Shown here piece by piece: positions 1-28,648 of a stretch of DNA of 64,000 nt (positions are counted from its first letter, which is position 1; each line of letters starts with the position of its first letter). The stretch comes from Antedon mediterranea. Taxonomy: Eukaryota > Echinodermata > Crinoidea > Comatulida > Antedonidae. The position numbers and the translations under genes are program-made. Under the pieces are notes generated by a model. The model did not search any database and had not been told where the DNA came from. It saw nothing but the letters and a program-made list of their open reading frames with translations. The DNA lies in contig NC_092676.1 of assembly GCF_964355755.1 (NCBI RefSeq), positions 28,378,288-28,442,287 on the forward strand, given 5' to 3'.

Positions 1-60
1 ATTTATTAGTTATTTTGGTGGTTGAATTGTTAAAATAAATATACGTAATATACAATACAA
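1..60 (+). other. Duplicated flank of an array unit
   Basis: The words ggtggttgaattgttaaaat and the following aaatatacgt recur at about 12720-12752, downstream of the EEP-like gene at 11275. A weaker match (taggtggttg) occurs near 23365, downstream of the EEP-like gene at 21678. The window therefore probably opens just 3' of another EEP-like gene that lies off the left edge. The link to an upstream gene is inference. Confidence 0.4.
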
Positions 61-519
61 TGTCTGTTTGTCTGTTTAGGTATTTATTATTGAATAAGTA
101 ATGCGAGCGTCTTTCCTTGAGGTTCAAAACTGGTCCGGTACTTGTTATATAAGGTACCTGTTTTCTAAATCCCTAATACATATTTGATTAAAATACTTGT
201 TTATTTATATAACATAGGCCTATGCCATAATTGTTATGGGTTTAGTATAGTTATACAGTTTTGATTACGATACCTCAAGTATTTTATTTTATGGTAAGTG
301 TTTGCCCTGTTATTCCTAATATGGCATGACATTCCTGTTGGTCACTGCAAAAAAAAGTGAACGCGCACACAGGGTATACACTTAAAAAACCTTGATTCCC
401 CGCACTTTGTTATTACCCTTGTAACTAAAAAGAAAATATGCCAAATATCGGTCCGCAAGATGCAAATAATAAGTGAGGATAAGAATGATATCTGAACAAC
501 AATCTGATATCATATTCTT

Positions 520-935
520 TCAAGCAATTAAAGTTCGAGGAATACTCCAACGGTTTACTGACAGCTACATCCACCACTGAGTACTGATCAAGAAAGGAAG
601 GTTTCGTATGGAACAAAGAGGAAAAAATATCAGAAACCGTGTTTGATGATGTTTTACCTTGGTCGTCAATGTACCGTAAAACTGGATGATGTTATCGTTA
701 CTACTGCATGGCACGGCAAGTATAAAATAACAGATGTAGACAAAAAAGATGTTTAAGCAAACTTAAGGACTACGCCTTTCTCTTAGTCAAGGAGTACAAC
801 TTACCAGTTATCATTGGTGGAGATTTTAACATAGAAGCAGACAAAAACATCCATGGACGTAAACATAATGTTGATTATTTTTATGTTTTCGTCCGGCAAA
901 ATATTTATATAATCGGTGAAGTGTCCGCGATCAAA
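520..935 (+). pseudogene. EEP-like (DNase I-fold) protein, broken copy
   Basis: Translated pieces match the gene at 21678-22451. A segment near 560-600 resembles its 'AVLIKK' strand. Positions 650-750 read CTVKLDD then AWHGKYKI, matching CTVKLDD and AWHGKHKI. Positions 795-835 read LPVIIGGDFNIEA, with the GDFN metal-binding motif intact. The end reads VDYFYVF, matching the paralogue's YDYFYFV. A stop and a frame change fall around 750-790, and the stretch between the GDFN strand and the YDYFY strand is mostly deleted. It cannot make a whole protein. No N-terminal part is recognisable in front of it. It belongs to the same family as 11275, 21678 and 3975. Confidence 0.8.
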
Positions 936-1474
936 CTATCATCATATCATACTATCAATGAAAGGTGAGAATATTTAAACATATTAAAAACAGTTTAACA
1001 AACATTTTCTATCCACTCTACAAATTGTTTCATATAAAGATATTGTGGAACCACGTCAGGTCAAGTTCAATATTGAATATCGAAACGTGGCAGGCTGAAG
1101 GCGCTTGACCTTTGACAAGATCGCCTACATTTCTAGTTTTTAACCTTACAATACTTGTATTGTATATTCAGGTACAGCCGCTCCATAATCTCTTTGCTTT
1201 TCTTCCCTATATCTTTTAACATAAAATTGTTTTTACTAACAAACATTACTGTTTATACGCCTAGTGTAGTATGTTTTACATCTTTAACATATTTTCATAA
1301 ACATCTTCATATCGTACAACTACTCGTAACAAATTTTCTCAACTTTCTATCATCTAAAAGTCGTAGTTAGTCATGTCTCGGGTCACATTCTATGGTCACC
1401 GTACAGGTAGGCTACTACATTAGTACTTCTATGAATGGATGACTAGCCGGTGACAATAACGCTAGTTGGTCATA

Positions 1475-1741
1475 TATTAATATTTATACATAATACATAG
1501 GATCGCAATTAAATAAAGTTAACAAGGTTTGTTAACCTTAATGTTGAATTGTATTTTGAATTCATGAAGATCATTAATATGGTGGTCACTGTAATCGTCA
1601 ATATCAGTTTCCGTTTCGTATGGAAACACCGATAATAAAATAACGGTGTTTAAAATAATAAGGAAATAATAACATGAAAACAATATATAATAAATATAGG
1701 CTTACCCAAAAAGGAAAGACAGAATCAACATACAATTCGAA
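1475..1741 (+). promoter_or_regulatory. Conserved upstream module of the Ig-receptor family
   Basis: About 265 bp ending at the ATG at 1742 are nearly identical to 13190-13451 and clearly similar to 16598-16880. Shared words include gtcaatatcagtttccgttt and aataaggaaataataacatg. Conservation across functional and dead copies shows that the promoter region was duplicated with the gene. Core promoter and 5' UTR boundaries cannot be fixed by eye. Confidence 0.55.
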
Positions 1742-2095
1742 ATGGAAGGACGTTTTGTAACACTGTTATTTGCTGTTTTAAGATTTCTTATTGTTAATTC
1801 AGTTGAAGATGACCTAGAATTTAGTGCAAAGACAGGCACTATAGTTCTGAGTGAAGGATCAAGAGGCCAACTAGAATGCTCAGTATCAGACATGACAAAA
1901 TATACAATCTCATGGTATAGAGAAACAAGAAATGGTGACAGAACAATCATTTACAGAGATGGAATGTTGATACTGAACAACTTGAGAAGAGAACAAGCAT
2001 ACAGCAACCATATATATTGCATGATGTTCAAATAAGACAAGCACGTGGACGATATCTTGGTTATTTTCTTAATCGTAATAATTACACATGATTTA
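1742..2095 (+). pseudogene. Two-Ig-domain receptor, broken copy 1
   Basis: An intact start gives a signal peptide (MEGRFVTLLFAVL...) and the first half of the first Ig domain, with the LECSV cysteine and the SWYRE tryptophan strand. Compared with the full copy at 16881, it lacks one codon after REQ and carries two extra bases near 2010. These shift the frame and give a stop at 2033-2035. Homology goes on in another frame to the 'NNYT' strand near 2090 and then ends, so the second cysteine, the second Ig domain, the membrane helix and the tail are gone. The copy at 13452 carries the same lesion. Confidence 0.85.
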
Positions 2096-2389: not shown

Positions 2390-3080
2390 GCCCCAATTTG
2401 ACATGCACTTAAGCCTACTTTTCCTGCAGACAGATATGCCTACTAACCCGAATGCTCGACCAAGTTATACACGCCAAAATAGACATAAGCTATTTCTTAA
2501 TAGGAAATTGGAATGTAGTGTTAGTTTATTAGAAAGATCGTCAATTTCGTATGAGTACGAGTGTAAGTTTTGTATAAGTTTAAAGTGTTAATTCATTTTA
2601 ATACGGTAGGTAGGTCTATACATTTTTAAGAAAGGGAATTTGCTAGCCAGTGATAATATTTATGTCAAACCTGTAGATACTGCACTGAGATAATTAAGTA
2701 ATGATAACAAGCTGATATTATTCTCGACCCAGAATTCTAAACGCATTGCTCCTGTCTTTTCTATCGTGAAAATAGAATAACATTACTAAACACGCGATAT
2801 CTAAAAATATATGTTCTTTTATCATATAGAATAATTGATGATTTTTAGTTTGTAAATTTCATGCTGGTACTGTCCTCGTTGGAATTTTATTTCACAACTG
2901 GCATATTTTATTTGTAAACAGTTCGTTTCTGTACACAATTTAAAGTTCCATGCTTCATCTGGCCAATTATGTTATTATATTTCCTATTATCAATTTGTTC
3001 TCATTCAAGGCAACAGGGAAATAAAAGAAACTTAGTGTCTCTGAACTCTGCAAAATCATGTTTGTATTTTTATATACACC
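2390..3080 (+). repeat. 3' module shared by broken Ig units, with exon-like segment
   Basis: This block recurs at 14098-14765, at 19748-20320 and as a weak remnant at 24820-25015. It begins with a good splice acceptor (tgtttatttcag) followed by an open stretch translating EPQFDMHL, then FLQTDMPTN and ARPSYTRQNRHK, conserved in all three main copies. I do not recognise the peptide. It may be a lost or alternative 3' exon of the Ig family, because the full-length copies do not contain it. Confidence 0.5.
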
Positions 3081-3249
3081 GACATTTTAGTTTTGTTATA
3101 AAATAATAAATGCAAGTTAGATATTCTTTTTTCGTTTTTAATTAAACAAACACACGAATACTTCATTTAAAAAAAATGCCATTCAATGTATGATAATCCA
3201 TGTTATCCATTTATTTTATTAGTTCGAATTAGAAATACATCATGTTTTA

Positions 3250-3974: not shown

Positions 3975-4100
3975 ATGGCACCTCATAATCCTGTTACTGC
4001 TACTTATTATATGTCTGGTGAGGAAAAATACAAGCTTACAACTTACAATAACAACAAACCCCATAAATCTATTGGTAATAACATTTTGATAATTTTTTAA
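3975..4100 (+). pseudogene. EEP-like protein, N-terminal remnant
   Basis: The reading frame starts MAPHNPVTATYY and continues EKYKLTTYN before a stop at 4098-4100. It aligns with PHNPVTAEFKF and YTITTYN at the N-terminus of the gene at 21678, and the Asn of the first EEP motif is kept. Only about 41 codons survive, and the sequence runs straight into the tandem array that follows. It also supports the choice of MAKP as the true start of the 21678 gene. Confidence 0.75.
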
Positions 4101-5790
4101 TATATAGCAATTAAACAGTTTATATACTACTTATTGGTTCCTAGAAATGCAAAATATGTTGACTAAATTCAAAGTTATTAGCAAAAATGTTACCCCTTAC
4201 CCCATAATTTTTAATAATTACAAATTACTATTACGGTCACAATTCCTAATATTATTACACAGGTTTATTTGTTTTTAATCTTTAACTTCAATTTCTTGTC
4301 CATTGTCTTTATAGGTTTAAAAGAAAAGTTAGATTTGGTGTATTTTTGCGTTAAATATTGAAACTTTATTAATGTTACATTTGGACGAAATTGCATTTCT
4401 TTAAATGTTCAATGACCATTTGACCTACAATGATGTCAATATATGTTACGTTTTATTTTTTCACAATGAATATAACAATTAGGCAACCTACGCAGTACAT
4501 ATTAATACCAAAAATATGCAAATGTGATAACTAAATCCAAAGTTATTAGGAAAAATGTAACCCCTTACCCTATAATTGTTAATAATACATTACTATTAAC
4601 AGACAGAATGTCCTCATAAATTCACAGAATATTTGTTTGTTAAATTCAATTTTCTTATTTATTGTGTCTATAGGTTTAAGAAAACATTAGTTTGCATAAG
4701 ATATCTTGTATTTTTGTGTTTAAAATTGAAATGTATAAGCTAATTTAGAAGAAATTGCATTTTTTATTAAAGGTCATTGACCTTTGACCTTTAAAAGACA
4801 TCAATAGATGTTCGATTCATTTTTTAAAAGCATATTACAATAAAGAAATCCATACACTACATACTGATAACAAGAAAATGTAAATCTGTTCCCGAAATCT
4901 TAAGTTATTTGCAAAAACGTTACCCCCTACCCATTATTGTTAAAGATTACTAATGACGAAAAAATGTCTTAATAATGTGTTTAAAATTGAAATTTATAAG
5001 CTAATTTATAAGAAATTGCATTTTTTTATTAAAGGTCAGTGACCTTTTGACCTCTAAAGATGTCAATAAATGCGGGATTCAATTTTAAAAAGTATATTAC
5101 AATTAGGAAATCTATACACTACATACTGATAGCAAGAAAATGCAAATCTGTTAACTAAATTGTAAGTTATTTGCAAAAATGTTACCCCCTACCCCATAAT
5201 TGTAACTGATTACAAATTACTAAAAACAACAAATTTCTTCATAATACACAGCATATTCATATTTTGTTAATCTTTAACTTCAATTTTCTTGTTTATTGGG
5301 TCTATATGTTCATGAAAACATCAGTTTGCATAACATCTATTGTATTTTTTTTGTTAAAAACTGAAAGTTATAAGTTAATATTAGACAAAAAATCATTTTT
5401 TACTAAAGTTCATTTATTTTTTATTTTTTTATTTTATTTATTTATTTTTTTTATTTTATATATTTAGGCAAATTGCCAAGGATAACCATAAGCAAATTCA
5501 ATCACTATCCTTCTTAAAGGTGGCAATCCGTTCACGAGACAAACATATACACACAATGCTCTACATAAACAAAGTCTTTATTACAAGTCTTTGGGAGTGG
5601 AGTTGTAAATTCAATGACCTTCTGACCTCTAATGGCGTCAATAATTGTTGGATTTACTTAGAAAAATATATTACACTTAAGCAGTCTATACACTACATAT
5701 TGATACCAAGAAAATGCAAATCTGTTCATTAAATCCCGAGTTATTAGCAAAAGTGTTACCCCCTACCCCAAAATTTTGTGATGCATATTT
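4100..5790. repeat. Diverged tandem array, unit about 365 bp
   Basis: The phrase gttaccccctaccccataat, or a close variant, recurs near 4190, 4560, 4920, 5182 and 5757. Other phrases recur in register (ggtcattgacctttgacc, actacatactgata, agaaaatgcaaatctgtt). Spacing is about 365 bp, shorter in one unit and longer in the unit that contains a SINE at 5460-5625. No coding capacity. Confidence 0.7.
5460..5625 (-). mobile_element. SINE family B, 5'-truncated copy
   Basis: The stretch agacaaacatatacacacaa, then ctctacataaacaaag and aagtctttgggagtggag, matches the fuller copy at about 33560-33855. This copy stops where the tRNA-like head should begin (ttgtaaatt). It interrupts one unit of the surrounding 365-bp tandem array. 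Confidence 0.65.
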
Positions 5791-5987: not shown

Positions 5988-7099
5988 GGGGTGTCACGAA
6001 AGCTCAGACCACGAAAGCTCAGACCCCCTAAGACCTAAGATCACGAAAGCTAAGACCCAACACCTAAGATTACAAATATTTATCTTTCGCACCTGCCTTG
6101 TATTTTAACTCCCAACATTTATTCTGAATACCACACCTTAGAATTGGCACTTTCATGAAAAAGAATCACATAAAAAGTAACAAATACATTTTTAAATTGA
6201 TGATTTTACAGACGTTTTTCTCGCACACAAAATGACTAGCCTACATCAGTACAGTAGGCCTACCCCATGGGCCATGTTCAAATTTCAATGTTTTTGTTTC
6301 TATGGAACGTCAAAAGAGCAAAAATTATATAGAGGGCTGAAAACTCTGTGGAGTCCATCTACAGTGTGGATGGAACAATGTAAAATTAAAATTGTAATGA
6401 TAATAGTATAATCATGCAAGTACGAAGAAATAAATACTGGCAAATAAATTTTAATTTAAAAATCATGATAAGTTTTTTTGTTTCGTTTTCTTTCTGTTTT
6501 TATACTTGTACTATTATTGTTGCTCTTTTGGCGCTCCATAGAAACAAAAACATTGAGCATGGGGAGCTCGAGGAGTTACATTGTCATTAGGCCTACAGCA
6601 GTATACAGTACAAAGAAACACATCTGTAAAATCATCAATTTAAAGGATTTATTTATTTGTTATTATGTGTTTCTCCTTCTGAAAGTACTTATAAGTCCTA
6701 ATTTTAAAGTGTGGTGTTCAGGATAAAGTTAGTCAACAAATTTGGAGTCAAAATACAAGAAAGGCAGGTGCGTAAGAAAAACATCCTCTGAAGCAACACA
6801 ATGGAGTAAATATATACCAACAAACAACCCGTCAAGTTTGTTTGTTGTAAAGAAAAAATATACATTTACTCAACGGGCGAAAATAATGTGAGTTTATCTA
6901 TGTTTTGCGGTAGTATTAAATTATATTTATGGTAATAAATGAAACCTACTGTGTTTAAAATTATGTATGGATAAACAAGTATTGTTTTTAAGCTGTAGTA
7001 TATCTTAGTATTTGTAATCTTAGGTGTTGGGTCTTAGCTTTCGTGATCTTAGGTCTTAGGGGGTCTGAGCTTTCGTGGTCTGAGGTTTCGTGACACCCC
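5988..7099. mobile_element. hAT-like non-autonomous foldback element with 8-bp target duplication
   Basis: The ends are inverted copies: GGGGTGTCACGAAAGCTCAG at 5988 and its reverse complement near 7099, with one base different in the outer part. CTTTAACC occurs on both sides (5980-5987 and 7100-7107), an 8-bp target duplication as made by hAT-type transposases. The inverted repeat extends far inward: 6060-6330 pairs with about 6510-6775, and the terminal 95 bp pair with 7005-7099, with extra sequence at 6780-7005. The terminal region repeats the phrase cacgaaagctcagacc. No transposase is encoded. Superfamily assignment rests on duplication length only. Confidence 0.8.
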
Positions 7100-7159
7100 C
7101 TTTAACCGAGGCGATACCTGAGCTGATTTTTCGAGACGGCAGCTATCGTATTTGGCCTG

Positions 7160-9418: not shown

Positions 9419-9425
9419 GAGCTTG

Positions 9426-10703
9426 TTACTGGTATTTTGTTTGGGGGACCTGTCTGTGTTTATGGTCTCTCCCCGTCCCGCTGGATTGACCTTGGTCCGT
9501 TTCCCTGGCTCCTACAGCTCCTGGAAAAATGGTTGGATCCACCGCACTTAAAACAATGTCTACACTCCGCCCCTTCTTATTCTGTTTGCATACATCACAA
9601 CCCCTTTCTCTAGTCTTTCTTTCAGTTCTCTGCTGCACCATTGAAAGGGATGCAGTCTCAGTGTTCTGCCGTACCACTTGTTGAAGTGCCGACACATTAG
9701 CCTGTAGTGTTTTCATTCCTTTTATCAACAGTTGTATCTCATCCTGCTGTCCATCTGCTGCAACAGAAGCAGCACTGATGCACGTTTTACTTTTCTGAGA
9801 CCGTCTTTCTTCTAGATTCTCCACAATGGCTAATCTTTCTAGAAGATCTTCATCGGTAATTTTCGGTGTAAGATACGGATTCATTTCACTTCTCAATCTC
9901 TCTGGCAAGCCAGTCTTCAATGTTTGGATGAAGGTATTTTGTACTAAATCCGCATCATATTTTAGGGTTGATTGATCTTCCTGGGATGCAAAAGTGACCC
10001 GTTGACGAAGGCTCATCGCACGCATAACAAAATCCTGTGTTGCTTCAGATTTTCGAAGCGATGCTGCTGCTAGTTCTTGATACAGGTCCATCGCATCTCG
10101 TTCCTTATAATGAGCCCTTAGAATTCTTCGCAACTGTGGCAATTTTACATCAATTCTCCCTTCCAGGTAACTTCGTAGCGGCAACTCTGGACTTATTGCT
10201 TTGGTCACAGCAACCAAAATCTCTCTGGAGGTATACCCTTTTTGGACTGCATCTTCAATTTGCATGGCGAGACTGTTAAAGGTCAGCTTCCCTGCCTGTC
10301 CGGGTGCCCCAATCTGTCCACTTAGCTTCAGATCACGTCTGCCACATGGGAAAGCACCCAAGCCCTTGTTCTCTGGCGCTGGTCTCTCACCCCCTGCAGA
10401 CGTCACCTCATTTACTGCCACTTCGATCTCCTCTCCTGGTGCCTCGAATCCACCAATTATTAGTTCATGCATGCCCGTCAACAGTGCTAGTCCTTTATCC
10501 TCCATTGTGTCTACCTCATCGCCATCTAAAAATTTATTGATTGCCTTTAAAACAATGCGTTTCGTTTTGTCATCCATTCCTTCTAGCTTAAGATACCGTG
10601 CCACTTCTTTTACTTGTTCTACAGTCAGAAGGGAAAGTGTACTACGTACCTCTCTCTCTAGAGTTTCTAATTCCATGTTCTTCGCTTTTCTTTTCTCATT
10701 CAC
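9426..10703 (-). CDS. Ty3/gypsy gag-like polyprotein
   Basis: A 425-codon frame opens with ATG at 10703 (MNEKRKAKNMELE). The N-terminal half is charged and helical. Residues from about 150 to 300 look like a retrotransposon capsid region (AMSLRQRV, FIQTLKTGLPERLR, DLLERLA). Near the C-terminus a CDVCKQ stretch would start a zinc-knuckle region. The canonical knuckle CFKCGGSNHFSRSC is encoded in the neighbouring frame at about 9505-9555, so the open frame misses it. The gag product of this copy would therefore lack a proper nucleic-acid-binding knuckle. It is followed downstream (-) by the protease. It is probably a dead copy, though gag itself is long and open. Confidence 0.75.
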   Translation of the reverse strand: MNEKRKAKNMELETLEREVRSTLSLLTVEQVKEVARYLKLEGMDDKTKRIVLKAINKFLDGDEVDTMEDKGLALLTGMHELIIGGFEAPGEEIEVAVNEVTSAGGERPAPENKGLGAFPCGRRDLKLSGQIGAPGQAGKLTFNSLAMQIEDAVQKGYTSREILVAVTKAISPELPLRSYLEGRIDVKLPQLRRILRAHYKERDAMDLYQELAAASLRKSEATQDFVMRAMSLRQRVTFASQEDQSTLKYDADLVQNTFIQTLKTGLPERLRSEMNPYLTPKITDEDLLERLAIVENLEERRSQKSKTCISAASVAADGQQDEIQLLIKGMKTLQANVSALQQVVRQNTETASLSMVQQRTERKTRERGCDVCKQNKKGRSVDIVLSAVDPTIFPGAVGARETDQGQSSGTGRDHKHRQVPQTKYQ

Positions 10704-10715
10704 TTCCTAGAGATG

Positions 10716-11274: not shown

Positions 11275-12005
11275 ATGTCACAAGCAACTGCTGTTAATTC
11301 TAATTTGAACTTGAATGGAGATAGATTCACATTTACAACGTGTACATTCTCTGGACAAATGAATAATAGATGGATAAGAGACGGTGGATTTGATATTGTA
11401 TTCTGTCGAGAAGTTACTCAAGCTAAATTGGAAAACTTGGAAGAGGACTACGAGAGTATTCTTGGTTCTAACGTTCCAGGACACATCACAGCAGTATTGG
11501 TGAAGAGGAATAGGTTTGATCAACAAATAGAAAGATTACCAACTGATCATGCTCTTGCAGAAGCAAATTGGCGTTTTTGTCCAGTCAAGCTGAATAACAT
11601 GATCGTTGTAGCATGGGACGGCCGATCGAGAAATCAAGGTAGGCATACTGCAGATGAAAAAAAAGAAATCTGTCTTAACCAACTTCGTCGATACGCATTA
11701 TCGTTGGTAGACAATTTGGATAAACCAGTTATCATCGGTGGAGCCTTTCAGTTAGACGCAGAAGTTCGCTGTGAAATTGAAGACGATCTATCAGAAAACT
11801 ACATTTATAAGTGCAGTACAGATGTCAATAAACCAAACAATACTGATTACTATTATGGTATGGCTAAACAACAGGAGGGCTTGATTTTTGAACTTTCAGG
11901 TAAAAAAACGCTAATTATGATTTATAGTTGTATTAATTTATTAGAATTTAAATGTGTGAGTTATCAGTAAGATTTTTTTTTTTATTTTCAACAGAGCAAG
12001 CTTAA
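11275..12005 (+). CDS. EEP-fold (DNase I-like) protein, probable pseudoenzyme
   Basis: The start is the ATG at 11275 (MSQATAVNSN). The protein aligns along its length with the gene at 21678: YDF/GHITAVLVK, CPVKLNNMIVVAWDG, LRRYALSLVDNLDKPVIIGG. EEP proteins (DNase I, APE1, sphingomyelinase and phosphatase families) use Asn, Glu, Asp-x-Asn and Asp-His to bind metal and cut phosphodiesters. Here the TTYN motif is TTCTF, QE is RE (residues 45-46), the H in AWHG is D, and GGDYN is GGAFQ (155-159). Only the Glu remains, so catalysis is unlikely. The coding end is uncertain: unspliced it stops at 11968-11970, but CAG|gtaaaa at 11899 and an acceptor before 11995 would join to a stop at 12005 (about 211 residues). 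There is no signal peptide. TATAAATAG lies about 110 bp upstream. The function is unknown. Confidence 0.7.
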
Positions 12006-13189: not shown

Positions 13190-13451
13190 ATATTAATATT
13201 TATACATAATACATAGGATCGCAATTAAATAAAGTTAACAAGGTTTGTTAACCTTAATGTTGAATTGTATTTTGAATTCATGAAGATCATTAATATGGTG
13301 GTCCCTGTAATCGTCAATATCAGTTTCCGTTTCGTATGGAAATAATAAAATAACGGTGTTTAAAATAATAAGGAAATAATAACATGAAAACAATATATAA
13401 TAAATATAGGCTTAACCAAAAAGGAAAGACAGAATCAACATACAATTCGAA
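13190..13451 (+). promoter_or_regulatory. Conserved upstream module of the Ig-receptor family
   Basis: This is nearly identical to 1475-1741, apart from an 8-bp deletion after gtatgg near 13340. It ends at the ATG of the broken Ig copy at 13452. Confidence 0.55.
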
Positions 13452-13805
13452 ATGGAAGGACGTTTTGTAACACTGTTATTTGCTGTTTTAAGATTTCTTA
13501 TTGTTAATTCAGTTGAAGATGACCTAGAATTTAGTGCAAAGACAGGCACTATAGTTCTGAGTGAAGGATCAAGAGGCCAACTAGAATGCTCAGTATCAGA
13601 CATGACAAAATATACAATCTCATGGTATAGAGAAACAAGAAATGGTGACAGAACAATCATTTACAGAGATGGAATGTTGATACTGAACAACTGGAGAAGA
13701 GAACAAGCATACAGCAACCATATATATTACATGATGTTCAAATAAGACAAGCACGTGGACGATATCTTGGTTATTTTCTTAATCGTAATAATTACACACG
13801 ATTTA
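13452..13805 (+). pseudogene. Two-Ig-domain receptor, broken copy 2
   Basis: It differs from copy 1 (1742) at only a few bases and shares its missing codon after REQ and its frameshift near 13720, with the stop at 13743-13745. Protein differences within the open part are NNWRREQ for NNLRREQ and IYYMM for IYCMM. It encodes the signal peptide and half an Ig domain only. Because the lesion is shared, copy 1 and copy 2 were separated by a duplication that happened after the gene died. Confidence 0.85.
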
Positions 13806-14097: not shown

Positions 14098-14765
14098 GAG
14101 CCCCAATTTGACATGCACTTAAGCCTACTTTTCCTGCAGACAGATATGCCTACTAACCCGAATGCTCGACCAAGTTATACACGCCAAAATAGACATAGAG
14201 TAAGCTATTTCTTAATAGGAAATTGGAATGTAGTGTTAGTTTATTAGAAAGATCGTCAATTTCGTATGAGTATGATTGTAAGTTTCGTATAAGTTTAAAG
14301 TGTTAATTCATTTTAATACGGTAGGTAGGTCTATACATTTTGAAGAAAGGGAATTTGCTACCCAGTGATAATATTTATCCCTGTAGATACTGCGCTGAGA
14401 TAATTAAGTAATGATAACAAGCTGATATTATTCTCGACCCAGAATTCTAAACGCATTGTTCATGTCTTTTCTATCGTGAAATTAGAATAACATGCGAATA
14501 ACACGCAATATCTAAAAATATAATATGATCTTTTATCATATAGAATAATTGATGATTTTTAGTTCGTAAATGTCATGATGGTAGTGTCCTTGTTGGAATG
14601 TTATTTCACAACTGGAATATTTTATTTGTAAACAGTTCGTTTCTGTAGACAATTATATAAAGTTCCATGCTTCATCTGACCTATTGTGTTATTATCAATT
14701 CGTATTCCTACAGGCAAATAAAAAAAAATATAGTGTCTCTGAAATCTGCAAAATCATGTTTATAA
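14098..14765 (+). repeat. 3' module shared by broken Ig units
   Basis: This is the counterpart of 2390-3080, with the same acceptor and the EPQFDMHL segment. A 4-bp insertion in the peptide region (catagagtaagc) changes the frame after RQNRH. The following 14765-15230 block recurs diverged at about 20426-20660. Confidence 0.5.
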
Positions 14766-15782
14766 ATTCGAGTAATACCTGTGTTTCTGGCACCATTGAT
14801 GTTCTTAAGACATCAGTAACAAACAGATATGACTTCCTCATCTGTGAATAGGAAAATATTTGTATTTTCGTGATTAGAAGAATTGAAATTATTACTTTAC
14901 AGATTTATGCCATAGGAACTAATTTTATACCGATATTCTTATACTTTGATGTCAAAATTAAATATTCACAATTAATTTCGATACAGATAGAAATAGAACC
15001 ATAAACAACAAATACGACAAAAATACATCCAAAAAACTGCACGTGAAAAGAAATAAAAAGCATAATTGCACTTGATAAAAACAAAATACATATAACGAAA
15101 CAAAAACTTGGCCTATTTAGTGTCGGGCCTTTAAATGTCTTTTTTATAATATTTTGTGTTGGTAATAGGAGGTTCAAACATTGATCAGGTTATTTTTTGT
15201 ATTATAAACAATTACTAAGAGCTAGGTAAATACAATTGTTATAGTATACCAATCATTAAACAAAATAAATATATTTGATTTGTTTTATGAATATATTTCT
15301 AGTGAAACTTTGCATATCAACGAAAATTACCTCTCTCAATCTCTCATTGCTGGTTGCTAGAGCCCCATACTAATATTAAACGACGAACCTGGAAAATCAA
15401 TTACGTAAGTAAAGTCGCTTTTTATCGGTCAGATTACTTGGATTTTTTTTTTTATCACGAATCGAATTCATTTATTTTTCTTATTTTCTAACCAAAAAAA
15501 AGTATAAAATAGGCCAAATATCGTTGTTTGTTGTATTCAATTCAATAAGGAATATATACGGTAACATTTATATTTTTATTACCGTTACCGCTCGTCTGTG
15601 TAAATTGGCCTTTATAGTATCTTCGCTCGTCATACTAACTATAATGTACACCCTACGCGCCCTCTATAGTTTGAACATTTTCATAAAAATCTCACGGGGG
15701 CGGGAAAAAGATAAAAATAGGCCTATACTACCCATACAAATATACTACAGAATCAACACAGAATTAACATAACTAATTTCAA

Positions 15783-15890
15783 ATGGACAAACCTCTTGTA
15801 AAATTGTTATTTTTGTGTTTTGCTGCTTCGGATTAATGCAGTTGAAGGTGACCTGGGATTAAGTGCAAATAAAGGCTCTAGAATGCTCAA
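15783..15890 (+). pseudogene. Two-Ig-domain receptor, N-terminal remnant
   Basis: After an upstream stretch like that of other copies (acagaattaacataactaat, then ttcaaatgg), the sequence encodes MDKPLVKLLFL. After a frame break it encodes NAVEGDLGLSANKGS, matching NAVEKDLGFTANIGS of the gene at 25588. Homology ends at agaatgctc. It is the most diverged copy in the window. Confidence 0.7.
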
Positions 15891-16597
15891 TGCTTGGTTG
15901 CCTGTCGCGGTACGTATACGTATAAGAGTTATATGTACCGTCGTTTTACGTATCCAGTCCCTTGTATTATTTTATACAGTCTAGTTCAACAGTAATATTC
16001 TTTAAAAACATAATGAATGGTATTAGTAGTGTACACATTCCTCTCTATTATTATATTTTGACAAACTAAAGTCATGGTTCACGACATGCTTTGTGAGCAT
16101 GCAGGTAACGTAGGCAATACGCCTACGACGTTGAATTGTATCTACTGAAGTATTTTGTGATTACACCTCACGAAATTATGCAAGAATGACGTAAGCCACA
16201 TTATACATGTACAATAACTGGCTAACTCAGCATTTGAAATGATTATGTACCTCATTTAATATGTTTTTAGTAAAACTGCTTTAGCTTGATGTTATTGTTT
16301 TATAACAGTGTTTAATAATCAATCAATATGTTCAGAATAGTCAAAATTGTAATGTTTATGATAACAAATCCCCAGGATTGTCTTCATTATGATATTGGTA
16401 ATCTGTAAACATGATACTGTTAATTTATGAGGAGGTTTACACATTTGAAAAGTTATCCAATGTTCAGGTGACAAAGTCCCCATACCCCATCTGCATAATG
16501 CCTTCTATAGCTCTTTTATGCAAGATTTTGAATGACCGCTGCCGCACATCAAATATTTTTTTCAGAGATATAGGACATGTATACAACATATTAATTT

Positions 16598-16880: not shown

Positions 16881-17915
16881 ATGGAAGGACGTTTTGTAAC
16901 ACTGTTATTTGCTGTTTTAAGACTTTGTATAGTTAATTCAGTTGAAGATGACCTAGGATTTAGTGCAAATACAGGTTCTATACCTCTTAGTGATGGTTCA
17001 GGAACAGGCAAACTGGAATGCTCAGTATCAAACATGGCCGAATATTCAATATCATGGTATAGAGAAACAAGAAATGGTGACAAAACAATCATTTACAGAG
17101 ATGGAATGTTGATACTGAACAACTTGGAAAGAGAACAAGAAGCATACAGCAACCATAGTACACATGATGTTCAAATAACACAAGTACTTGGACGAGATCT
17201 TGGTTATTTACTTAATGGTAATAATTACACTTGTGAAGTAAGTCTGAAGTCTACAGGTGATGTAGTACGAATATCATCTGGTGTTATTGTAATTGCTAAA
17301 TATACTCCATCATTGAATTACCCAATCTGTGAGTCAAGTGACTTTTCAACAGATTCAATTGGTTCAAATATTAAGATGTCTTGCTATTCTGAACCTGGTA
17401 ATCCAAGTTCTACTGGATCTGGTTCAAGTGTACAGCTACAGTGGTTAAAAAATAACAAAGCAATTCAAGATGTTGTGCAGAAAGATACAACTACTTTTAC
17501 TTACTTAAATTACACGTTTACACTAACAGTTGATGATTTAAATAGTACTTTCATGTGTAATAATGGTATTAACGGTTGTAAATTGACAAGTAGGCCTACT
17601 ATCTCAACAACGGATCCACAAACTCGGTCTACAGATTCTTCCGATTGTTTAGACTTGGCAATTATCATTACTGTCAGCATTGTGGATTTTGTATTCTCGG
17701 TAGTTTGCCTTTTTGTTGGTCTTTACTTTTACAAGAGGAGAAATATCAAGAAAGATGCAACGAATAGTGCTTCTAGACAACATCAAACACAGCAGCAGAG
17801 TTTGGATCCAATTGGGCATTATTATGACGACACACAAATTGAATCACAGGAACATCATTATGAAACCCATATTGAACCACCACAGTATGACTATGCTGAT
17901 TCTGGAGCTGTTTGA
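16881..17915 (+). CDS. Single-exon type I membrane protein with two Ig domains
   Basis: 344 residues. Signal peptide is about 1-20 (MEGRFVTLLFAVLRLCIVNS). The first Ig-like domain is about 25-138 with Cys47 (LECSV), Trp59 (SWYRE) and Cys118 (YTCEV). The second is about 140-238 with Cys168 (MSCYS), Trp188 (LQWLK) and Cys226 (FMCNN), plus an extra Cys150/Cys233 pair. A Ser/Thr stalk (239-256) leads to a membrane helix (257-284) and a stop-transfer KRR. The tail of about 58 residues has Tyr314, 315, 327, 336 and 338, none in a perfect ITIM. N-glycosylation sites occur at NYT and NST. It is probably a cell-surface recognition or adhesion molecule, but ligand and pathway are unknown. It is unusual in being intronless, since Ig domains are normally one per exon. 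It is close to 25588 and lies in an array with EEP-like genes. Confidence 0.85.
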   Translation: MEGRFVTLLFAVLRLCIVNSVEDDLGFSANTGSIPLSDGSGTGKLECSVSNMAEYSISWYRETRNGDKTIIYRDGMLILNNLEREQEAYSNHSTHDVQITQVLGRDLGYLLNGNNYTCEVSLKSTGDVVRISSGVIVIAKYTPSLNYPICESSDFSTDSIGSNIKMSCYSEPGNPSSTGSGSSVQLQWLKNNKAIQDVVQKDTTTFTYLNYTFTLTVDDLNSTFMCNNGINGCKLTSRPTISTTDPQTRSTDSSDCLDLAIIITVSIVDFVFSVVCLFVGLYFYKRRNIKKDATNSASRQHQTQQQSLDPIGHYYDDTQIESQEHHYETHIEPPQYDYADSGAV

Positions 17916-18998
17916 AACCTCTTGTTATGATGTCAACAAATCTAGCACATCCATCTTTCTGAATAAAATTAACTCATCTTTATTAATGTAAACTATTACT
18001 TTAGTCGACCCTTTATAAATTTGAATAAACCACAGCTAGTTAGAATATGATTATTAAACAGATACTGACTAAATATTTTTGTGGAAAAGGAACCGTTATA
18101 ATGAATCTACAACTAGTCGTAGGACAGAACATATTCGTTAAAATTAATAAATTAAAATTGTTAGGATATTTTTGCTATGATATATCCAAGTGTGTATGTA
18201 TACTGTACTCTTTACCAAGGGCAGCATGACTATCATGTGTATATAAACAACATAATAATAGGGCCGTTAACCTTTTATTATAAATACTCTTTAGCTGACC
18301 GAATTTATTTGTATCGCATTTCTGTTACTTATTGTTACTGTTACTGTTATTCTTTATGATAAATAAATAAACGAACTAAAATATGGAATGAATTGTTTGA
18401 GCAAAAAAGGCGAACTAATACGGAAGTTAACGGCAAAATAACAGAGAAATAACAATTCAACAAGGAAAGGAAACTATTCTACCCGGGTGACGCTTCTAAA
18501 ATTGCAGATATCCCCGTAACAGAGTATGAGTACCTGTACTGTAATACGTTGTATACTCCATCTATACTTTAATGTATCACTGCATACATACATGATTAAT
18601 TATAAGTAACTCATAAGTGAGTGGATAATGTGAAAAGATAAGCATATCCCGATTTATTAGCCTGTGAATCTACTAAAAGAACATATAAATATCGGTCCTT
18701 GTTTATAATTAATTCATGCGTTGTTTTAATGAATAATGAGTCCAGTGGCATCGCATTTTCCACCCTTTGTAACGCCTGACATTTTTGTATAGATGCTAAA
18801 CTTGTTTAAAAGCGCCCACTATGACTTGATGAAGTTTTAAAATGTCATAGCGTCCTCTGTTGTTTGGACATGCTTTGATATTTCATTTTTTTTTCAAGTT
18901 GGGAGGTTTTGTAGTTGAATAAAGAAAAAAAAAAGACGAAAAAAGCCTTAACAGAATAAACACACAGAATCAGCATAATAACATAATGATTACTTGAA
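17916..18998. other. 3' flank of the Ig gene and intergenic
   Basis: No further gene is seen. The stretch near 18317 (cgcatttctgttacttattg, then ataaacgaac) recurs at about 26983 and 27737. It therefore marks the 3' flank of full-length Ig units, and the copy at 27725-27800 is an orphan. The upstream region of the 18999 copy differs from the modules ahead of 1742, 13452 and 16881. Confidence 0.45.
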
Positions 18999-19292
18999 AT
19001 GGAAGGACGTTTAGTAACACTGTTATTTGCTGTTTTAAGACTTTTAGTTGTTAGTTCAATTGAAGATGACTTAGGATTTAGTGCAAACATTGGTTCTATA
19101 GCTCTTAATGAGGGTTCAACAGGCCAACTAAAATGCTCAGTATCAGACATGACCAAATATACAATCTCATGGTATAGAGAAACCAGAAATGGTGACAGAA
19201 CAATAATTTACAGAGATGGAATGTTGATACTGAACAACTTGGGATTTTTATTGATACATTTAGTGACTAATATAGATATTGATAGAAATTGA
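18999..19292 (+). pseudogene. Two-Ig-domain receptor, truncated copy
   Basis: ATG at 18999 gives MEGRLVTLLFAVLRLLVVSS and the first Ig half through GMLILNNLG. The homology then ends and the frame closes at 19290-19292 in unrelated sequence. The joint (aacttgg then gatttttattgatacattta) matches non-coding sequence downstream of copies 1 and 2 (near 2130), so an internal deletion removed the rest of the domain. The open part has no stop. It would make a secreted fragment of under 100 residues if expressed, but the Ig fold is incomplete. Confidence 0.8.
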
Positions 19293-19747: not shown

Positions 19748-20320
19748 GAGCCCCAATTTGACATGCATTTAGGCTTACTTTTCCTGCAGACAGATATGCC
19801 TACTAACTCGAATGCTCGACCAAGTTATACACGCCAAAATAGACATAAGCTATTTCTTCTATTATTAGTTTATTAGAAAGATCGTAAGTTTGGTATAATT
19901 TGAATAAAGGGATTTACTACCCAGTGATAATATTTATGTCAAACCTGTGGATACTGCGCTGATATTATTAGGTAATGATAATAAGCTGGTCGACCCAGAA
20001 TTCTAAACGCATTGCTCCTGTCTTTTCTATCGTGAAATTAGAATAACATTAATAAACACGCAATATCTAAAAATATATGTTCTTTTATCATATAGAATAA
20101 TTGATGATTTTTAGTTCATACATTTCATGCTGGTACTGTCCTCGTTGGAATTTTATTTCACAACTGGAATATTTTATTTGTAAACAGTTCGTTTCTGTAC
20201 ACAATTTAAAGTTTCATGCGTCATCTGACCAATTATGTTATTATATTTCCTATTATCAACTTGTTCTCATTCAAGACAACAGGGAAATAAAAGAAACTAG
20301 TGTCTCTGAAATCTGCAAAA
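19748..20320 (+). repeat. 3' module shared by broken Ig units
   Basis: This is the third copy of the block seen at 2390 and 14098, with the tgtttatttcag acceptor and an open EPQFDMHLGLLFLQTDM segment. It has several internal deletions. Confidence 0.5.
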
Positions 20321-21677
20321 TTATATTTGTAATTTTATATACACCGACATTTTAGTTTTGTTATTAAATAATAAATGCAATACATATAGATATTCTTGAG
20401 TTTTAGTAAACATATTTGTCATTCGAGTAATACCTGTGTTTCTAGCACTAGTAATAAACAGATAGATCTTCCTCATCTCTGAATAGGCAAATATTTATAT
20501 TTTCGTGATTAGAAGAATGTAAGCAATTGAAATATATATTACTTTACTTTATTTATACCATAGGAAATAATTGTATACCAATTATGCTTATAATTTGATG
20601 TCAGAATTGGATATTCACAATTAATTTTGATACATATAGAAATAGAACCATAAACAAAAAAAAAAGACAAAAATACATCCAACAAACTGCACATGAAAAG
20701 ATCTATCTATTATAACGGATACAATATTTTACGGGCTGTCTAGAATATTAGGACACCAAGTCTCCAATATATATAAAGTATTTTAGAAAGTCACGCGGTA
20801 CAAATATTCCTGTAGAGTATGGAGTTGAATGCTTTTTATAACAAATGTATACAAGACTTTGACTATCAAAACTATCTAAAGACTATCAAATTTATTATAA
20901 AAACCAATCCATTTGTTAAAGGTTTTTGTTAAAATAAAAACCCTTTATCGGCCTATTACCGCAATCCAAAAGTTCTTTCGTGATTTTATTTCTGCATCCA
21001 TTTTTTGTCATCGATTTTTATTCTAATAATAACATATAATATTTGATAATATAATAGCAATCTGGTTTTATATTTCTGGTAAAGGAATGAAGCATTTATT
21101 TTCCACTGCACTCAATAAAGAAAGATATGACTGAGAACCGATATCAATACAATGACGACGACGATGATACAAACTTTGCTTTAGACCTTCAATTCTCAAA
21201 AGAAATTTAATTTTTAATTTGGTTATAACATAGATAATGAGTGTGTATTTTGTATACGTCTGAAATTGTATTACTATGTGTTTCATCAATCTCTGGCTTT
21301 TAATTTTAATAAAAAATAACATTTGTGAAACAGGTAAAGAGTTTAACCGCCGGTATACTTCAATTAAAATAATTATTAATTAAAATATTACAATATCAAA
21401 TCAGACGTATATTGTGATGACTGTAGGCCTACTACCTTATAGGCATAATTCTTTCGTGTTTTGTCAACCCTGAAAATTCAACCAATAAAAACCAACGTCT
21501 CTTCCGAACACGACGTAATTACGGTACTGTTTTTGTCCAATACCATTTACTTATTTATCCTGCACCGTTGTTTATTGTTGATTTCTCTATCACAAAGTAG
21601 TACAAATAGAACTATTACAATGTAGACTTACTACTCAGTCTCTATTGAACGCAGACGTTTCATATACAATAGGAGTA
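20320..21677. other. Intergenic between Ig and EEP units
   Basis: 20426-20660 is a diverged copy of 14765-15005. From 20700 on I see no gene and no repeat that I can place. The EEP-like gene starts at 21678. Confidence 0.4.
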
Positions 21678-22451
21678 ATGGCAAAACCAAAACCAAAACC
21701 ACCACCACCACTACCACACAATCCTGTTACTGCTGAATTTAAATTTGGCACGAAAACATATACGATTACAACTTACAATAGTGGTTTAGATGGAGACGAC
21801 GAAACTCCTGAGATGAGGAAGAACAAAGTAGAAACAATTTTCAATTCGGATATTATAATGTGTCAAGAACTGACTCTAGGTACGATGAATACTTTCAGTG
21901 AGTATAATCAATACTTTGGTCATGTGCTAAACCAAACTGGATACACAGCAGTATTGATCAAGAAAGAACAGGACAGGCAGCGGATACCCCTACAGATACC
22001 GGTGAACGAATTGGATATCCGTCTACCAGACCACCACGGTCGTCATTGTACAGTGAAACTAGATGATTGTGTTGTTATTGCATGGCACGGCAAGCATAAG
22101 ATAAATCCAACTGGTACTCCAACAAAAGATAAAGAGGAACCACTTCCCAGAAAAAAAGAAAATGTTAAACAACTTCGACTTTACGCGTTTGATCTAGTTG
22201 ATAAATTTAATTTACCAGTTGTAATAGGTGGAGATTACAATTTGAAAGTAGAGGATGTGCAGTCGGTAATGAAGTCAGACTCAGAAAAACGCTACTTTGA
22301 GTTCATTAGGTTTGCAGATAATAACACACGTACACGTAATTATGATTACTTTTATTTTGTGCTCCCATGTTATGTCACTAAAGCAACCGCACGAATACCA
22401 CCAGGATCACTACCAACGGAAGGTGTCGCAAACATAAAAATACAAAATTAA
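21678..22451 (+). CDS. EEP-fold (DNase I-like) protein
   Basis: 257 residues from the ATG at 21678 (MAKPKPKPPPPLPHNPVT). This start is supported by the remnant MAPHNPVT at 3975. A proline- and lysine-rich N-terminus precedes an EEP fold: TTYNSG (Asn34), IIMCQEL (Glu64), HCTVKLDD and VVIAWHGKH (His137, near 123-140), VVIGGDYN (Asp186, Asn188), and RNYDYFYF (Asp223). These match the metal- and phosphate-binding motifs of DNase I/APE1-type phosphodiesterases. The usual closing Ser-Asp-His is not found: the protein ends with a basic, Pro-containing tail without His. At 257 residues it is about the minimum for the fold. There is no signal peptide or membrane helix, so it should be cytosolic or nuclear. 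It is unspliced. Substrate and activity are unknown. It stands between Ig-receptor units. Confidence 0.8.
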   Translation: MAKPKPKPPPPLPHNPVTAEFKFGTKTYTITTYNSGLDGDDETPEMRKNKVETIFNSDIIMCQELTLGTMNTFSEYNQYFGHVLNQTGYTAVLIKKEQDRQRIPLQIPVNELDIRLPDHHGRHCTVKLDDCVVIAWHGKHKINPTGTPTKDKEEPLPRKKENVKQLRLYAFDLVDKFNLPVVIGGDYNLKVEDVQSVMKSDSEKRYFEFIRFADNNTRTRNYDYFYFVLPCYVTKATARIPPGSLPTEGVANIKIQN

Positions 22452-24819: not shown

Positions 24820-25015
24820 AATCTCCAGAATGAGGGACTCAATATTTCATTAGAAAGATCAGTTTCATATAAAAGTGTAGTGTAATTAATTCATATTGGT
24901 ATAGGTCTATTATTTTGAAGAAAGGTAATTTACTGCCAATTGATAATATGTCAAACTCGTGGATAATTAAAATAAGCTGATATTATTCTCGAGCCAGAAT
25001 TCTAATCTCGAGATC
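24820..25015 (+). repeat. Diverged remnant of the Ig 3' module
   Basis: The sequence cattagaaagatcag, then gaagaaaggtaatttac and gctgatattattctcg, aligns with 2525-2745 of the shared 3' module. The coding-like segment is lost. It shows one more decayed unit between the EEP gene and the Ig gene at 25588. Confidence 0.5.
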
Positions 25016-25470: not shown

Positions 25471-25587
25471 GGTTTACCGTTTTATAAACGTCATTACATG
25501 CTTCAGTACACGTTTAAACAACGGTTGTGTTGAATAAGGAAATTCATCACAAAATATAACAGAATCAACATAAAACATAAATTTGAA

Positions 25588-26628
25588 ATGGAGGGACGTT
25601 TTGTTACATTATTGGGCTTTGTTGGTGTTTTAATGTTTCTTGTGGTTAATGCAGTTGAAAAGGACTTGGGATTTACCGCAAACATTGGTTCTATAGGTCT
25701 TAGTGAGGGTGGAACAGGCCAATTAGAATGCTCAGTATCAAACATGACAAAATATACAATCTCATGGTATAGAGAAACAAGAAATGGTGACAGAACAATC
25801 ATTTACAGAGATGGAATGTTGATACTGAACAACTTGGGAAGAGAACAAGAAGCATACAGCAACCATAGTAGATATGATGTTCACCTAAGACAAGTACGTG
25901 GACGAGATCTTGGTTATTTACTTAATGGTAATAATTACACATGTGAAGTAAGTCTGAAGTCTACAGGTGAAGTAGTACGAATATCATCTGGTGTTATTGT
26001 ACTTGCTAAATATACTCCATCATTGTTTTACCCAATCTGTGAGTCAAGTGACTTTTCAACAGATTCAATTGGTTTAAATATTAAGATGTCTTGCTATTCT
26101 GAACCTGGTAATCCAAGTGCTACTGGACTTGGTGAAAGTGTGAAGCTACAGTGGTTAAAAAATAACAAAACAATTCAAGATGTTGTGCAGAAAGATACTA
26201 CTACTTTCACTTACTTAAATTACACGTTTACACTAACAGTTGATGATTTAAATAGTACTTTTATGTGTAATAATGGTGTTAACAGTTGTAAATTGACAAG
26301 CACACAGAAAAGCACGATTTCAACAAAACAAACTCAGCCTACAGATTCACCGTCTTCTGGTGGCTTAGATTTAGCAATTATCATTATTGTCAGCATTGGA
26401 AATGTTGTATTCTCGGTAGTTTGCCTGTTTGTTGGTTTTTACTTTTGCAAAAGGAGGAACATCAAGAAAGATGCAATGATAGCTTCTGGACAACAGCAAA
26501 TACAGCTGCAGAGTTTTGATCAAATTGGACGTTATGTCACGCATGAAATCGTATCGCAAACGCATCATTATGAAGACCATATTGAACCAGTGTACGACAA
26601 TGTTGATTATGGAGCTAACACTTCTTGA
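25588..26628 (+). CDS. Single-exon type I membrane protein with two Ig domains
   Basis: 346 residues, full-length paralogue of 16881. Signal peptide is about 1-21 (MEGRFVTLLGFVGVLMFLVV). Ig domain 1 has Cys48, Trp60 and Cys119. Ig domain 2 has Cys169, Trp189 and Cys227, with the extra Cys151/Cys234. The stalk is Ser/Thr/Gln-rich, the helix is about 260-287 and the stop-transfer is KRR. The tail carries Tyr316, 328, 335 and 341. Tyr335 lies in YDNV, which has the pY-x-N form bound by Grb2-type SH2 domains. Much of the first Ig domain, from TISWYRE to GMLILNN, is the same as in the broken copies, while signal peptide and tail differ. Surface receptor or adhesion role is inference from architecture. 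No intron is needed. Confidence 0.85.
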   Translation: MEGRFVTLLGFVGVLMFLVVNAVEKDLGFTANIGSIGLSEGGTGQLECSVSNMTKYTISWYRETRNGDRTIIYRDGMLILNNLGREQEAYSNHSRYDVHLRQVRGRDLGYLLNGNNYTCEVSLKSTGEVVRISSGVIVLAKYTPSLFYPICESSDFSTDSIGLNIKMSCYSEPGNPSATGLGESVKLQWLKNNKTIQDVVQKDTTTFTYLNYTFTLTVDDLNSTFMCNNGVNSCKLTSTQKSTISTKQTQPTDSPSSGGLDLAIIIIVSIGNVVFSVVCLFVGFYFCKRRNIKKDAMIASGQQQIQLQSFDQIGRYVTHEIVSQTHHYEDHIEPVYDNVDYGANTS

Positions 26629-27374
26629 TGTACTGATGATAACAACGTTATGACTTCATTAATATAAACATTTTGTAAATAAACATAAATGTATGACCAT
26701 GTTGATTAACACTTGTTGATGTAGTAACAACGAATGATAACAACTTCAATATAAACCGTGTGTAACAAAGACTAATACAAATAAATAAACATTATATCTT
26801 TGAAATAAATATTTAGTCATTTATACGCTAATTATACTACACAACAAGGTACGATAAATTGAATGTGTAAAAATTAGGCGTATTGACTGCTGCTGACTCT
26901 TTTGAAGCTACCTAAAGTTATCTATTTTCACATAAAGGAAGTATAATATAAAATGAATATTTGTGTATCGCATTGCTGTTACTTATACTGTTGTTTGTTG
27001 GTAAAATAATAAAACGAACAAGAAGTCAATGAATAGGTTGTTTATTTAGGTTGTTTACCATGGAAGAATGAATTAACTTCACCCTTCCGTGGTTTTACAT
27101 AAATATTAACAGCGAAATAACAATTCAAAGGGATATAATAGTTAAATTGGCATGTCATTCTAAACCTGCATACCTACTGTGAAAAGTGTAATACGTCATA
27201 CGAACGTTTCTTCACAATTGTACATTATTATTATATTTATATCCATTTTATCATATCATATCCAAAGGCAAATTACTGAAAAAATGACAATGCAATATCA
27301 ATTTTATATATATTTGTATTTTTATTGTTTTACTTTTATATGTTTGAAGTGCAAGTGCAGTATAGAGAATCAAT

Positions 27375-27455
27375 TCGATAGTGCTTAGCACTTGGCAATC
27401 CCCAGGGTGCTGCACCGTTGTCATGTATTATATGTTGTTGTTTGTGCCTGAAAAT
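27375..27455 (+). mobile_element. SINE family B, 3' fragment
   Basis: The reverse complement of 33555-33645 is recognisable: gatagtgcttagcacttggc, then gggtgctgcaccgttgtcat and tgcctgaaaattgaat. Head and body are missing. Confidence 0.6.
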
Positions 27456-27479
27456 TGAATATAATAAAAACAAAATAAA

Positions 27480-27675
27480 ATACTCTTATATAATTATGAT
27501 TGGTTATTTGATTGCCCAAATCTGAACTATGACGTAATTTTACATAAATACATTTGAGAATAGGATCCACAACCCCCCCCCCCCCCGATCACTAACAAAA
27601 CAAAATAAAATACTCTGATTAGTTATTTGATTGCCCAACTCTGAACTATGACGTAATTTTACATAAATACATATG
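27480..27675. repeat. Direct duplication around a poly-C tract
   Basis: The words ttatttgattgcccaa, then ctgaactatgacgtaatttt and acataaataca, occur twice (about 27500-27553 and 27622-27673). They are separated by a run of 16 C near 27572 and flanking DNA. Confidence 0.6.
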
Positions 27676-28648
27676 AAGTCATATAAATCATAGAAATCAT
27701 ATAAATACATATGATCACTAACGCCTTTGTATCGCATTGCTGTTACTTATTAGGCCAATATGTCTGTTAGTAAAATAAAACGAAATAGAAATCAATGGAT
27801 ACGTTGTTCATGTCCACTGAGCATTCGCGGATTGCTAGGTTTAGATAATATTTATGGCCATGGATCTATACATTTTATAGGTCCGTGGTTAGATCAATAT
27901 TTTTCTAAAAAAATTAAGTAAAATACCCAGCTATGTATTAAATATTTAATTTCACAAGATTCAGATTAACCCTCTGGTTAAGGTATGTATTTTTGGTAGA
28001 TATTCTTCATCATATTTTAAGACACGAGAGTTGGAATCAATTTAAACAAAACCAAATGTTTTATGATTATCTCATCTTGGTTTATTGATATCAAAATTAA
28101 ATATACAACGCAAGAATGTGGAGACGTACAGAACAACACTTAGATTCAGATTTAGATTCAGATAATATTTATTTAGATAATAATGAATGAATATATACAA
28201 AATAGAAAAAAGATATTAAAGTGAACATAGATAAAGCAGTAATTGGTAGTCATTATTATCATGGATCCCTTCTAGAAGTTAAAAACTTGTCTCGTAGGGA
28301 CCCATAACAAAACACATTACTAAAAAAATAAAAAATAACCTAGAATATATAATTATATAATTTAGGATAAAAAATTACAGTATAATAACATAACTAACAT
28401 CTTCTTTATAAAAATTATTTAAATTATATTTCAATAGTTTCATGATAAATATAAATGAAATAACTACCGATATTGGTAAATGAAAAAAAAATATGTATAC
28501 TTAATTATAATTCCAGTATATATATAGTATATACTATATATACATTATATATAGTATAGATTAAAGATTGCAATAATAAACAACAACTAATATTTTGTGT
28601 AAGACATAAATAGTATATGAGTATAAATAATGATAATAAGCATATTAA

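Follow-up and report, generated by a model that had tools for sequence, protein, structure and literature searches.

Within a 64,000-nucleotide stretch of the crinoid Antedon mediterranea genome (C7:28,378,288-28,442,287, contig NC_092676.1 of assembly GCF_964355755.1; hereafter the window), we identified the end of a large array in which single-exon immunoglobulin (Ig) receptor genes and genes of the endonuclease/exonuclease/phosphatase (EEP) superfamily are interleaved on one strand. Our analysis confirmed that the array of the two families is larger than first described and that their side-by-side copying is real. The locus is probably a single array undergoing birth and death, whose shared duplications carry both neighbouring families along as hitch-hikers.

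The searches for the two families covered the window, the adjoining 116 kb on its left and the whole 354-Mb genome (18 contigs). Within the 180-kb stretch, loci were called with an iterated profile applied to all open frames of at least 40 codons, and pieces of one copy were merged. The array defined in this way extends over ~131 kb (C7:28,273,846-28,404,915) and starts 104 kb to the left of the window, which holds its last fifth, with about four-fifths lying outside. It comprises 31 family loci, 11 Ig and 20 EEP, interleaved and without exception on the + strand (31/31), and at its strongest match every EEP locus scored between E 6e-11 and 8e-97. Such matches, like the protein and block identities given below, are not due to chance. 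Full-length uninterrupted frames were found at only 2 of the 11 Ig and 6 of the 20 EEP loci; a further four EEP loci consist of a 28-codon 5′ fragment, and the N-terminal part is missing from another three. Intact EEP genes lie at window 21678 and at C7:28,305,533, 28,326,979 and 28,349,930. The window itself contains six Ig and four EEP loci, all on the + strand, of which two in each family have full-length open frames; two short fragments among them, at 15811 and 3981, were recovered by the iterated profile and missed by a search at the level of tblastn. These results bear out the first-pass annotation in its description of at least six Ig and four EEP copies alternating on the + strand and in its mention of many dead copies, whereas the ~26 kb that it assigned to this genuinely interleaved array was too small. 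One minus-strand profile match, at C7:28,373,562, was attributed on visual inspection to the endonuclease part of an element resembling a long interspersed nuclear element (LINE) and was excluded from all counts.

Comparison of the 180-kb stretch with itself revealed a mixed unit of ~21 kb that has been tandemly duplicated. Expressed in the coordinates of that stretch (genome position minus 28,262,287; subtraction of a further 116,000 gives window coordinates), the segments 33.75-45.06 kb and 55.01-66.53 kb are 96.5-98.7% identical and each holds two EEP loci, and the next block, which contains Ig, is 91.8% identical between 45.12-46.71 and 66.50-68.13 kb. Both copies of the unit preserve the order EEP, EEP, Ig, then a 28-codon EEP fragment and then a further EEP copy, with mixed blocks being 92-99% identical in DNA. 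Furthermore, two copies of a 3.4-kb block, each with a truncated Ig copy, a non-coding module and a 5′ fragment of an EEP gene, lie 90 kb from one another and are 97.6% identical. One frameshift is common to four truncated Ig copies, whose homology to full copies ends, together with that of a fifth, at the same NNYT codons, and two other truncated copies stop earlier, at a common point. Because mixed blocks are repeated and the frameshift and breakpoints are shared, co-duplication is seen directly, and the physical linkage and co-duplication claimed earlier hold in both the interleaving and the ~21-kb mixed unit.

Outside the array, the two families were found apart. Genome-wide, EEP relatives were matched in two places only: the C7 array and six loci clustered on the minus strand at C3:5.916-6.088 Mb, where the genome search returned no Ig match. 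Conversely, no EEP match was obtained at the Ig clusters C9:2.91-2.96, C3:11.88-11.90, C3:18.88-18.91 and C7:30.40 Mb; in either direction, the genome-wide searches may have missed a match. Ig matches are therefore present at one of two EEP clusters and EEP matches at one of at least five Ig clusters, and because of this tally the pairing looks like a single event. The idea that the families travel together beyond C7 was not sustained: the earlier annotation had taken unlinked members elsewhere as grounds against its reading, and the families proved linked at C7 and unlinked elsewhere, which contradicts that reading in part. Searches for viral relatives confirmed none for either family (5 and 155 pattern matches).

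The two complete Ig genes of the window, at 16881..17915 (+; 344 aa) and 25588..26628 (+; 346 aa, 75% identical to the former), each encode in one open frame a predicted signal peptide, two Ig domains, a transmembrane (TM) helix and a tyrosine-containing tail. The first was assigned from its open frame, a Pfam Ig_2 match (E 3e-4, under the curated cut-off) and a two-Ig model, and the second from its open frame and Pfam. The remaining four loci, also on the + strand, are incomplete. The copy at 1712..2088 retains the signal peptide and Ig1, carries a frameshift and loses homology to full copies at the NNYT codons (tblastn, profile and DNA comparison); that at 13425..13798 is truncated and belongs to a 1.5-kb block 96% identical to 1474-2988. 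A short fragment lies at 15811..15891 (profile E 1e-5; DNA match 15796-15880), and the copy at 18993..19244 is truncated inside Ig1 (tblastn and profile). Relative to the two full copies, the main Ig pieces show 74-79% protein identity and out-of-frame pieces 53-59%. Structure prediction returned two Ig domains and a TM helix (mean predicted local distance difference test score, pLDDT, 71.7; predicted template-modelling score, pTM, 0.52). Against known structures the model was Fab-like with Z ~12, but with a root-mean-square deviation (rmsd) of 5.5-12.7, and the best 50 Foldseek matches listed held nothing beyond generic Fab matches.

The Cys and Trp columns of the Ig superfamily are invariant in all 16 aligned rows (four proteins from C7 and 12 from a 15-copy cluster on C9), and 14 of these 16 proteins match Ig_3 at E ≤0.01. 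A third close Ig copy, accompanied by a diverged neighbour, lies at C7:30.40 Mb. The C9 cluster (C9:2.910-2.960 Mb) is a tandem set of single-exon two-Ig receptors, most of which have Thr-rich stalks and longer tails; a query taken from it gave at least 52 genome matches, 15 of them inside the cluster, all genome-wide Ig match counts being lower bounds. Unlike most C7 copies, 13 of these 15 matches are without an internal stop. Further single-exon Ig clusters lie at C3:11.88-11.90 and C3:18.88-18.91 Mb. Judged by their open frames, long-frame and apparently intronless Ig receptors are common in this genome, and prediction shows the array's Ig products as surface receptors of the kind that forms other tandem clusters here. 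They may be recognition or immune-type receptors that signal through tail tyrosines. In several tails of the C9 cluster (C9:2,906,001-2,964,000), repeated tyrosine motifs such as HVYNDV were observed.

Of the window's EEP loci, that at 21678..22451 (+; 257 aa) keeps TTYN, CQE, WHG, GGDYN and YDYF and is without the terminal Asp-His (open frame, profile, model and alignment), and that at 11275..11970 (+; 231 aa) has a changed active site with TTCT, CREV, WDG and GGAF (open frame; profile E 2e-64; alignment). The other two are a fragment at 646..893 (+; profile segments 646-741, 735-845 and 846-893, the last weak; tblastn 661-953) and a 28-codon 5′ fragment at 3981..4067 (+; profile E 6e-11). 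Single proteins matched Pfam weakly, one at E 0.14 and the other not at all; taken as a family, 9 of 13 aligned EEP domains matched PF03372 at E ≤1 (best 3.4e-9), and a profile of the 13 domains matched an exodeoxyribonuclease (E 5.7e-6) and C. elegans TDP2 (E 0.0012). Of the six C3 loci, five entered this alignment with six domains and the sixth is partial. The predicted model (pLDDT 70; pTM 0.74) was closest to TDP2 (Foldseek E 2e-7; Z 14.6, rmsd 3.4 over 181 residues), which by title accounted for all of the top 18 structure matches (Z 14.2-14.6; 10-17% identity), with nocturnin at 14.1 tied within 1. The best 50 matches were mostly EEP proteins (Z 11.7-14.6), and the fold also matches DNase I. 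Together, these results indicate that the proteins belong to the EEP superfamily with a TDP2-like predicted fold, an assignment firmer for the family than for single proteins.

Departures from TDP2 were found at both ends. The proteins begin with MxPHNPV or similar and carry an N-terminal signature peculiar to the family, HNPVxAT; by look, this start is unlike a signal peptide, which marks the secreted DNase I family. At the other end, no [ST]DH follows IDYF in any of the 13 aligned domains, four C3 rows being shortened in this check with 21-51 residues from IDYF onward still visible; in one C3 member KDH occurs 7 residues past the IDFF Asp, a shorter distance than the canonical EEP spacing. 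Residues 25-233 of the model align to 120-336 of the TDP2 chain, and D358 (named in the title of 5inn) lies past that segment. As for the other motifs, which together with [ST]DH we take to be catalytic positions, four canonical-like full copies keep TTYN, QE, WHG, GGDxN and [IY]D[YF]F. In the C7 copies at window 11275 and C7:28,375,951, TTYN has become TTCT, WHG has become WDG, GGDxN has become GGAF[QR] and QE has become RE, with the Glu kept, and QQ and GGN replace QE and GGD in 4 of the 6 aligned C3 domains. The missing terminal Asp-His and the further active-site changes argue that the family is probably non-catalytic, and its products may mostly be binders in the cytosol or nucleus. The label of EEP or DNase I-fold given earlier is supported by PF03372 and the TDP2-like fold; the missing Asp-His had been overlooked. 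On C3:5.99 Mb, one protein (L021 2198-3613, minus strand) has two tandem EEP-like domains, the second with QQ and GGN. Four equal-scoring Exo_endo_phos frames were also seen at C9:17.27, 17.28, 17.79 and 17.80 Mb, forming two pairs exactly 516,117 bases apart, which suggests a large duplication or an assembly duplication.

The duplicated blocks also carry a 0.5-kb non-coding module. Its copies in the window lie, all on the + strand, at 2625..3127 (nhmmer E 3e-172), 14340..14766 (nhmmer profile), 19900..20387, which is upstream of the EEP gene at 21678 and has genome matches only in C7:28.29-28.40 Mb, and 24915..25009, a partial copy of 95 bp that precedes the intact Ig gene at 25588 by 573 bp (nhmmer E 8e-11). 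A genome search gave 18 matches, all within the array, and the profile gave 26 matches in the 180-kb stretch, 12 of them near-full, with none in the C9, C7:30.40, C3 and C2 loci searched. The next member 3′ of the 12 near-full modules is an EEP gene in six cases (521-1291 bp), a 28-codon EEP fragment in four, a truncated Ig copy in one (411 bp) and an Ig fragment in one (1030 bp); the shared upstream modules reported earlier were thus recovered, ten before EEP and two before Ig copies. The profile found no module in the 180-kb stretch near the start of the other intact Ig gene, at 16881. On the 5′ side, the nearest member is a truncated Ig copy for 7 of the 12 near-full modules. The module could carry shared regulation or, just as plausibly, be debris that the duplications have dispersed. 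A coding role was rejected, all three forward frames being full of stops in the 5 of 12 copies examined, and a mobile element is unlikely given that all 18 matches fall in the array, although the DNA search used skips very common words. No Rfam family reached the gathering score in the window.

Codon comparisons indicated purifying selection on intact copies of both families, with ratios of non-synonymous to synonymous substitution (omega) of 0.43-0.58: 0.47 for three full Ig genes (p 3e-7 vs 1), 0.53 for the C9 Ig cluster (12 of 15 copies), 0.43 for three canonical-like and 0.55 for six EEP genes (each below 1, p ≤3.1e-6), and 0.58 for the changed-site EEP variants with one outgroup (below 1, p ≤0.0013). 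Synonymous divergence (dS) between the full window Ig copies was 0.135 in Ig1 and 0.07 in Ig2, against 0.602 in the signal peptide and 0.606 in the TM helix and tail; relative to the C7:30.40 copy, the corresponding values were 0.085, 0.265, 0.389 and 0.709. The ectodomain is consequently the least diverged part among full Ig copies, a pattern that suggests gene conversion and argues against ectodomain diversification.

Recent EEP copies were also compared. The B5/B7 pair differs at 6 of 1198 upstream, 52 of 788 coding and 11 of 761 downstream positions (Fisher p 1e-15 and 1e-7), with coding differences clustered at codons 57-111 and from ~195 onward, few between and none in codons 1-56. The A37/A87 pair differs at 21 of 463 upstream and 82 of 730 coding positions, its first 32 codons being identical. 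Its ratio of non-synonymous to synonymous differences (pN/pS) is 0.86, biased towards neutrality by a stop codon in A37, and pooled with B5/B7 the ratio is 1.00. For the recent B-group trio, omega was 1.84 (p 0.06) and fell to 1.37 (p 0.37) once the tail was removed. Diversifying selection on EEP was rejected as a conclusion, the B-group omega being not clearly above 1 and the two pairs pooling to neutrality. A search of the 180-kb stretch for a donor of the EEP patches found nothing convincing except sister copies. The EEP pairs would be accounted for as well by conversion confined to the 5′ part, the remainder drifting or being imported, as by diversifying selection. The fast-evolving recognition system envisaged by the first-pass annotation was accordingly not upheld, either in the Ig ectodomain or in the two recent EEP pairs.

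Under the birth-and-death reading that we favour, two unrelated single-exon families would have become neighbours once, and Ig and EEP copies would since have been duplicated, truncated and homogenised together; unequal exchange would copy whatever a unit contains, keeping the families together without any cooperation between their proteins. Three observations weigh against it: the Ig-EEP interleaving survived repeated duplication; the module found only in the array (18/18) lies in the 5′ flank of both families and could mean shared regulation; and B5/B7 diverge by 6.6% in coding sequence vs 0.5% over 1.2 kb upstream, which simple duplication and decay fail to explain. It is unlikely, but the most credible of the alternatives, that Ig surface receptors and internal EEP pseudo-enzymes form one recognition module, linked for the inheritance of matched variants in a manner that might be likened to allorecognition or immune haplotypes. 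Co-duplication of Ig and EEP and the array-only module 5′ of both would fit such a unit, as would the concentration of B5/B7 divergence in two parts of the protein and the B-group omega of 1.84. However, other Ig and EEP clusters are without the linkage, that omega is not clearly above 1, the two recent pairs pool to 1.00, and the Ig ectodomains are homogenised (dS 0.135 and 0.07 vs 0.606 in the TM helix and tail); the module, moreover, lies just 3′ of a truncated Ig in 7 of 12 cases and so may be duplication debris. A somewhat more doubtful elaboration would have the locus act as a receptor/pseudo-enzyme haplotype whose members share regulation through the module and are inherited together as a recognition unit, self/non-self or antiviral, in which EEP patches would be variable.

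It is improbable that the EEP family has TDP2-like phosphodiesterase or nuclease activity, with its general acid moved elsewhere or replaced by another, and acts, for example, against foreign nucleic acid. The motifs kept in the four canonical-like copies and the fold matches to TDP2, nocturnin and DNase I speak for activity, whereas the terminal [ST]DH is absent in 13/13 aligned domains and further residues are lost in two C7 copies and 4 of 6 C3 domains. Least credible of all, and very improbable, is that the array reflects an assembly artefact or uncollapsed haplotypes. Several blocks are indeed 97-99% identical, but copy identity spans 74-99%, no N occurs in the 180 kb, the assembly consists of few, very long contigs, and the second mixed unit has a segment with long minus-strand frames (72.3-79.1 kb of the 180-kb stretch) that is absent from the first.

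Invertebrate recognition systems commonly build on tandem receptor arrays with fast turnover, and those known to us hold one family each. Clustered single-pass transmembrane genes of an invertebrate are also reported for Biomphalaria GRC and PTC2, which we compared by description; we know of no Ig-EEP mixture there. Sea urchin SpTransformer (Sp185/333) genes likewise form an immune cluster, reportedly marked by segmental duplication and by being locally unstable; their proteins are different and make up one family rather than two interleaved. In an open-licence literature search on Ig-EEP pairing, intronless Ig arrays and EEP pseudo-enzymes, the phrase 'endonuclease exonuclease phosphatase' was absent among the matches listed. 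According to one report, the Hydractinia Alr complex groups single-pass Ig-superfamily receptors and many pseudogenes in one region (PMC11067881), an arrangement that the array shares. Unlike Alr, compared here by description and not by sequence, the array has single-exon genes mixed with EEP. Alr ectodomains are highly polymorphic and govern fusion; in the one assembly analysed here, the ectodomain is the part that differs least between paralogues. In the array, intronless Ig receptors and EEP proteins that lack the catalytic Asp-His have duplications and a non-coding module in common. If co-expressed, they would constitute a new pairing; if not, the locus would show cleanly how linkage can force two families to co-evolve. 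Notable in its own right is the EEP family, a probable pseudo-enzyme expansion.

Several repeats and element-like frames accompany the array in the window. A satellite-like repeat with a reported period of 262 bp (4099-5777) adjoins a duplicated block, and related repeats recur in other copies of that block. An inverted repeat of 98.9% identity (5988-6078 and 7009-7099), with arms ~0.9 kb apart, perhaps represents the ends of a mobile element. By eye, retroelement-like frames of gag and protease type occupy 8641-10706 (minus strand), inside the array between EEP and Ig copies. At the right edge lies a LINE-like element (28649-31763, minus strand) that carries endonuclease and reverse transcriptase frames of its own; its endonuclease appears EEP-like by eye and stands outside the array family. 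Further right are an AT-rich minisatellite of ~22 units of ~30 bp (39013-39665) and, by eye, an open frame resembling a tetraspanin exon (44078-44416, + strand).

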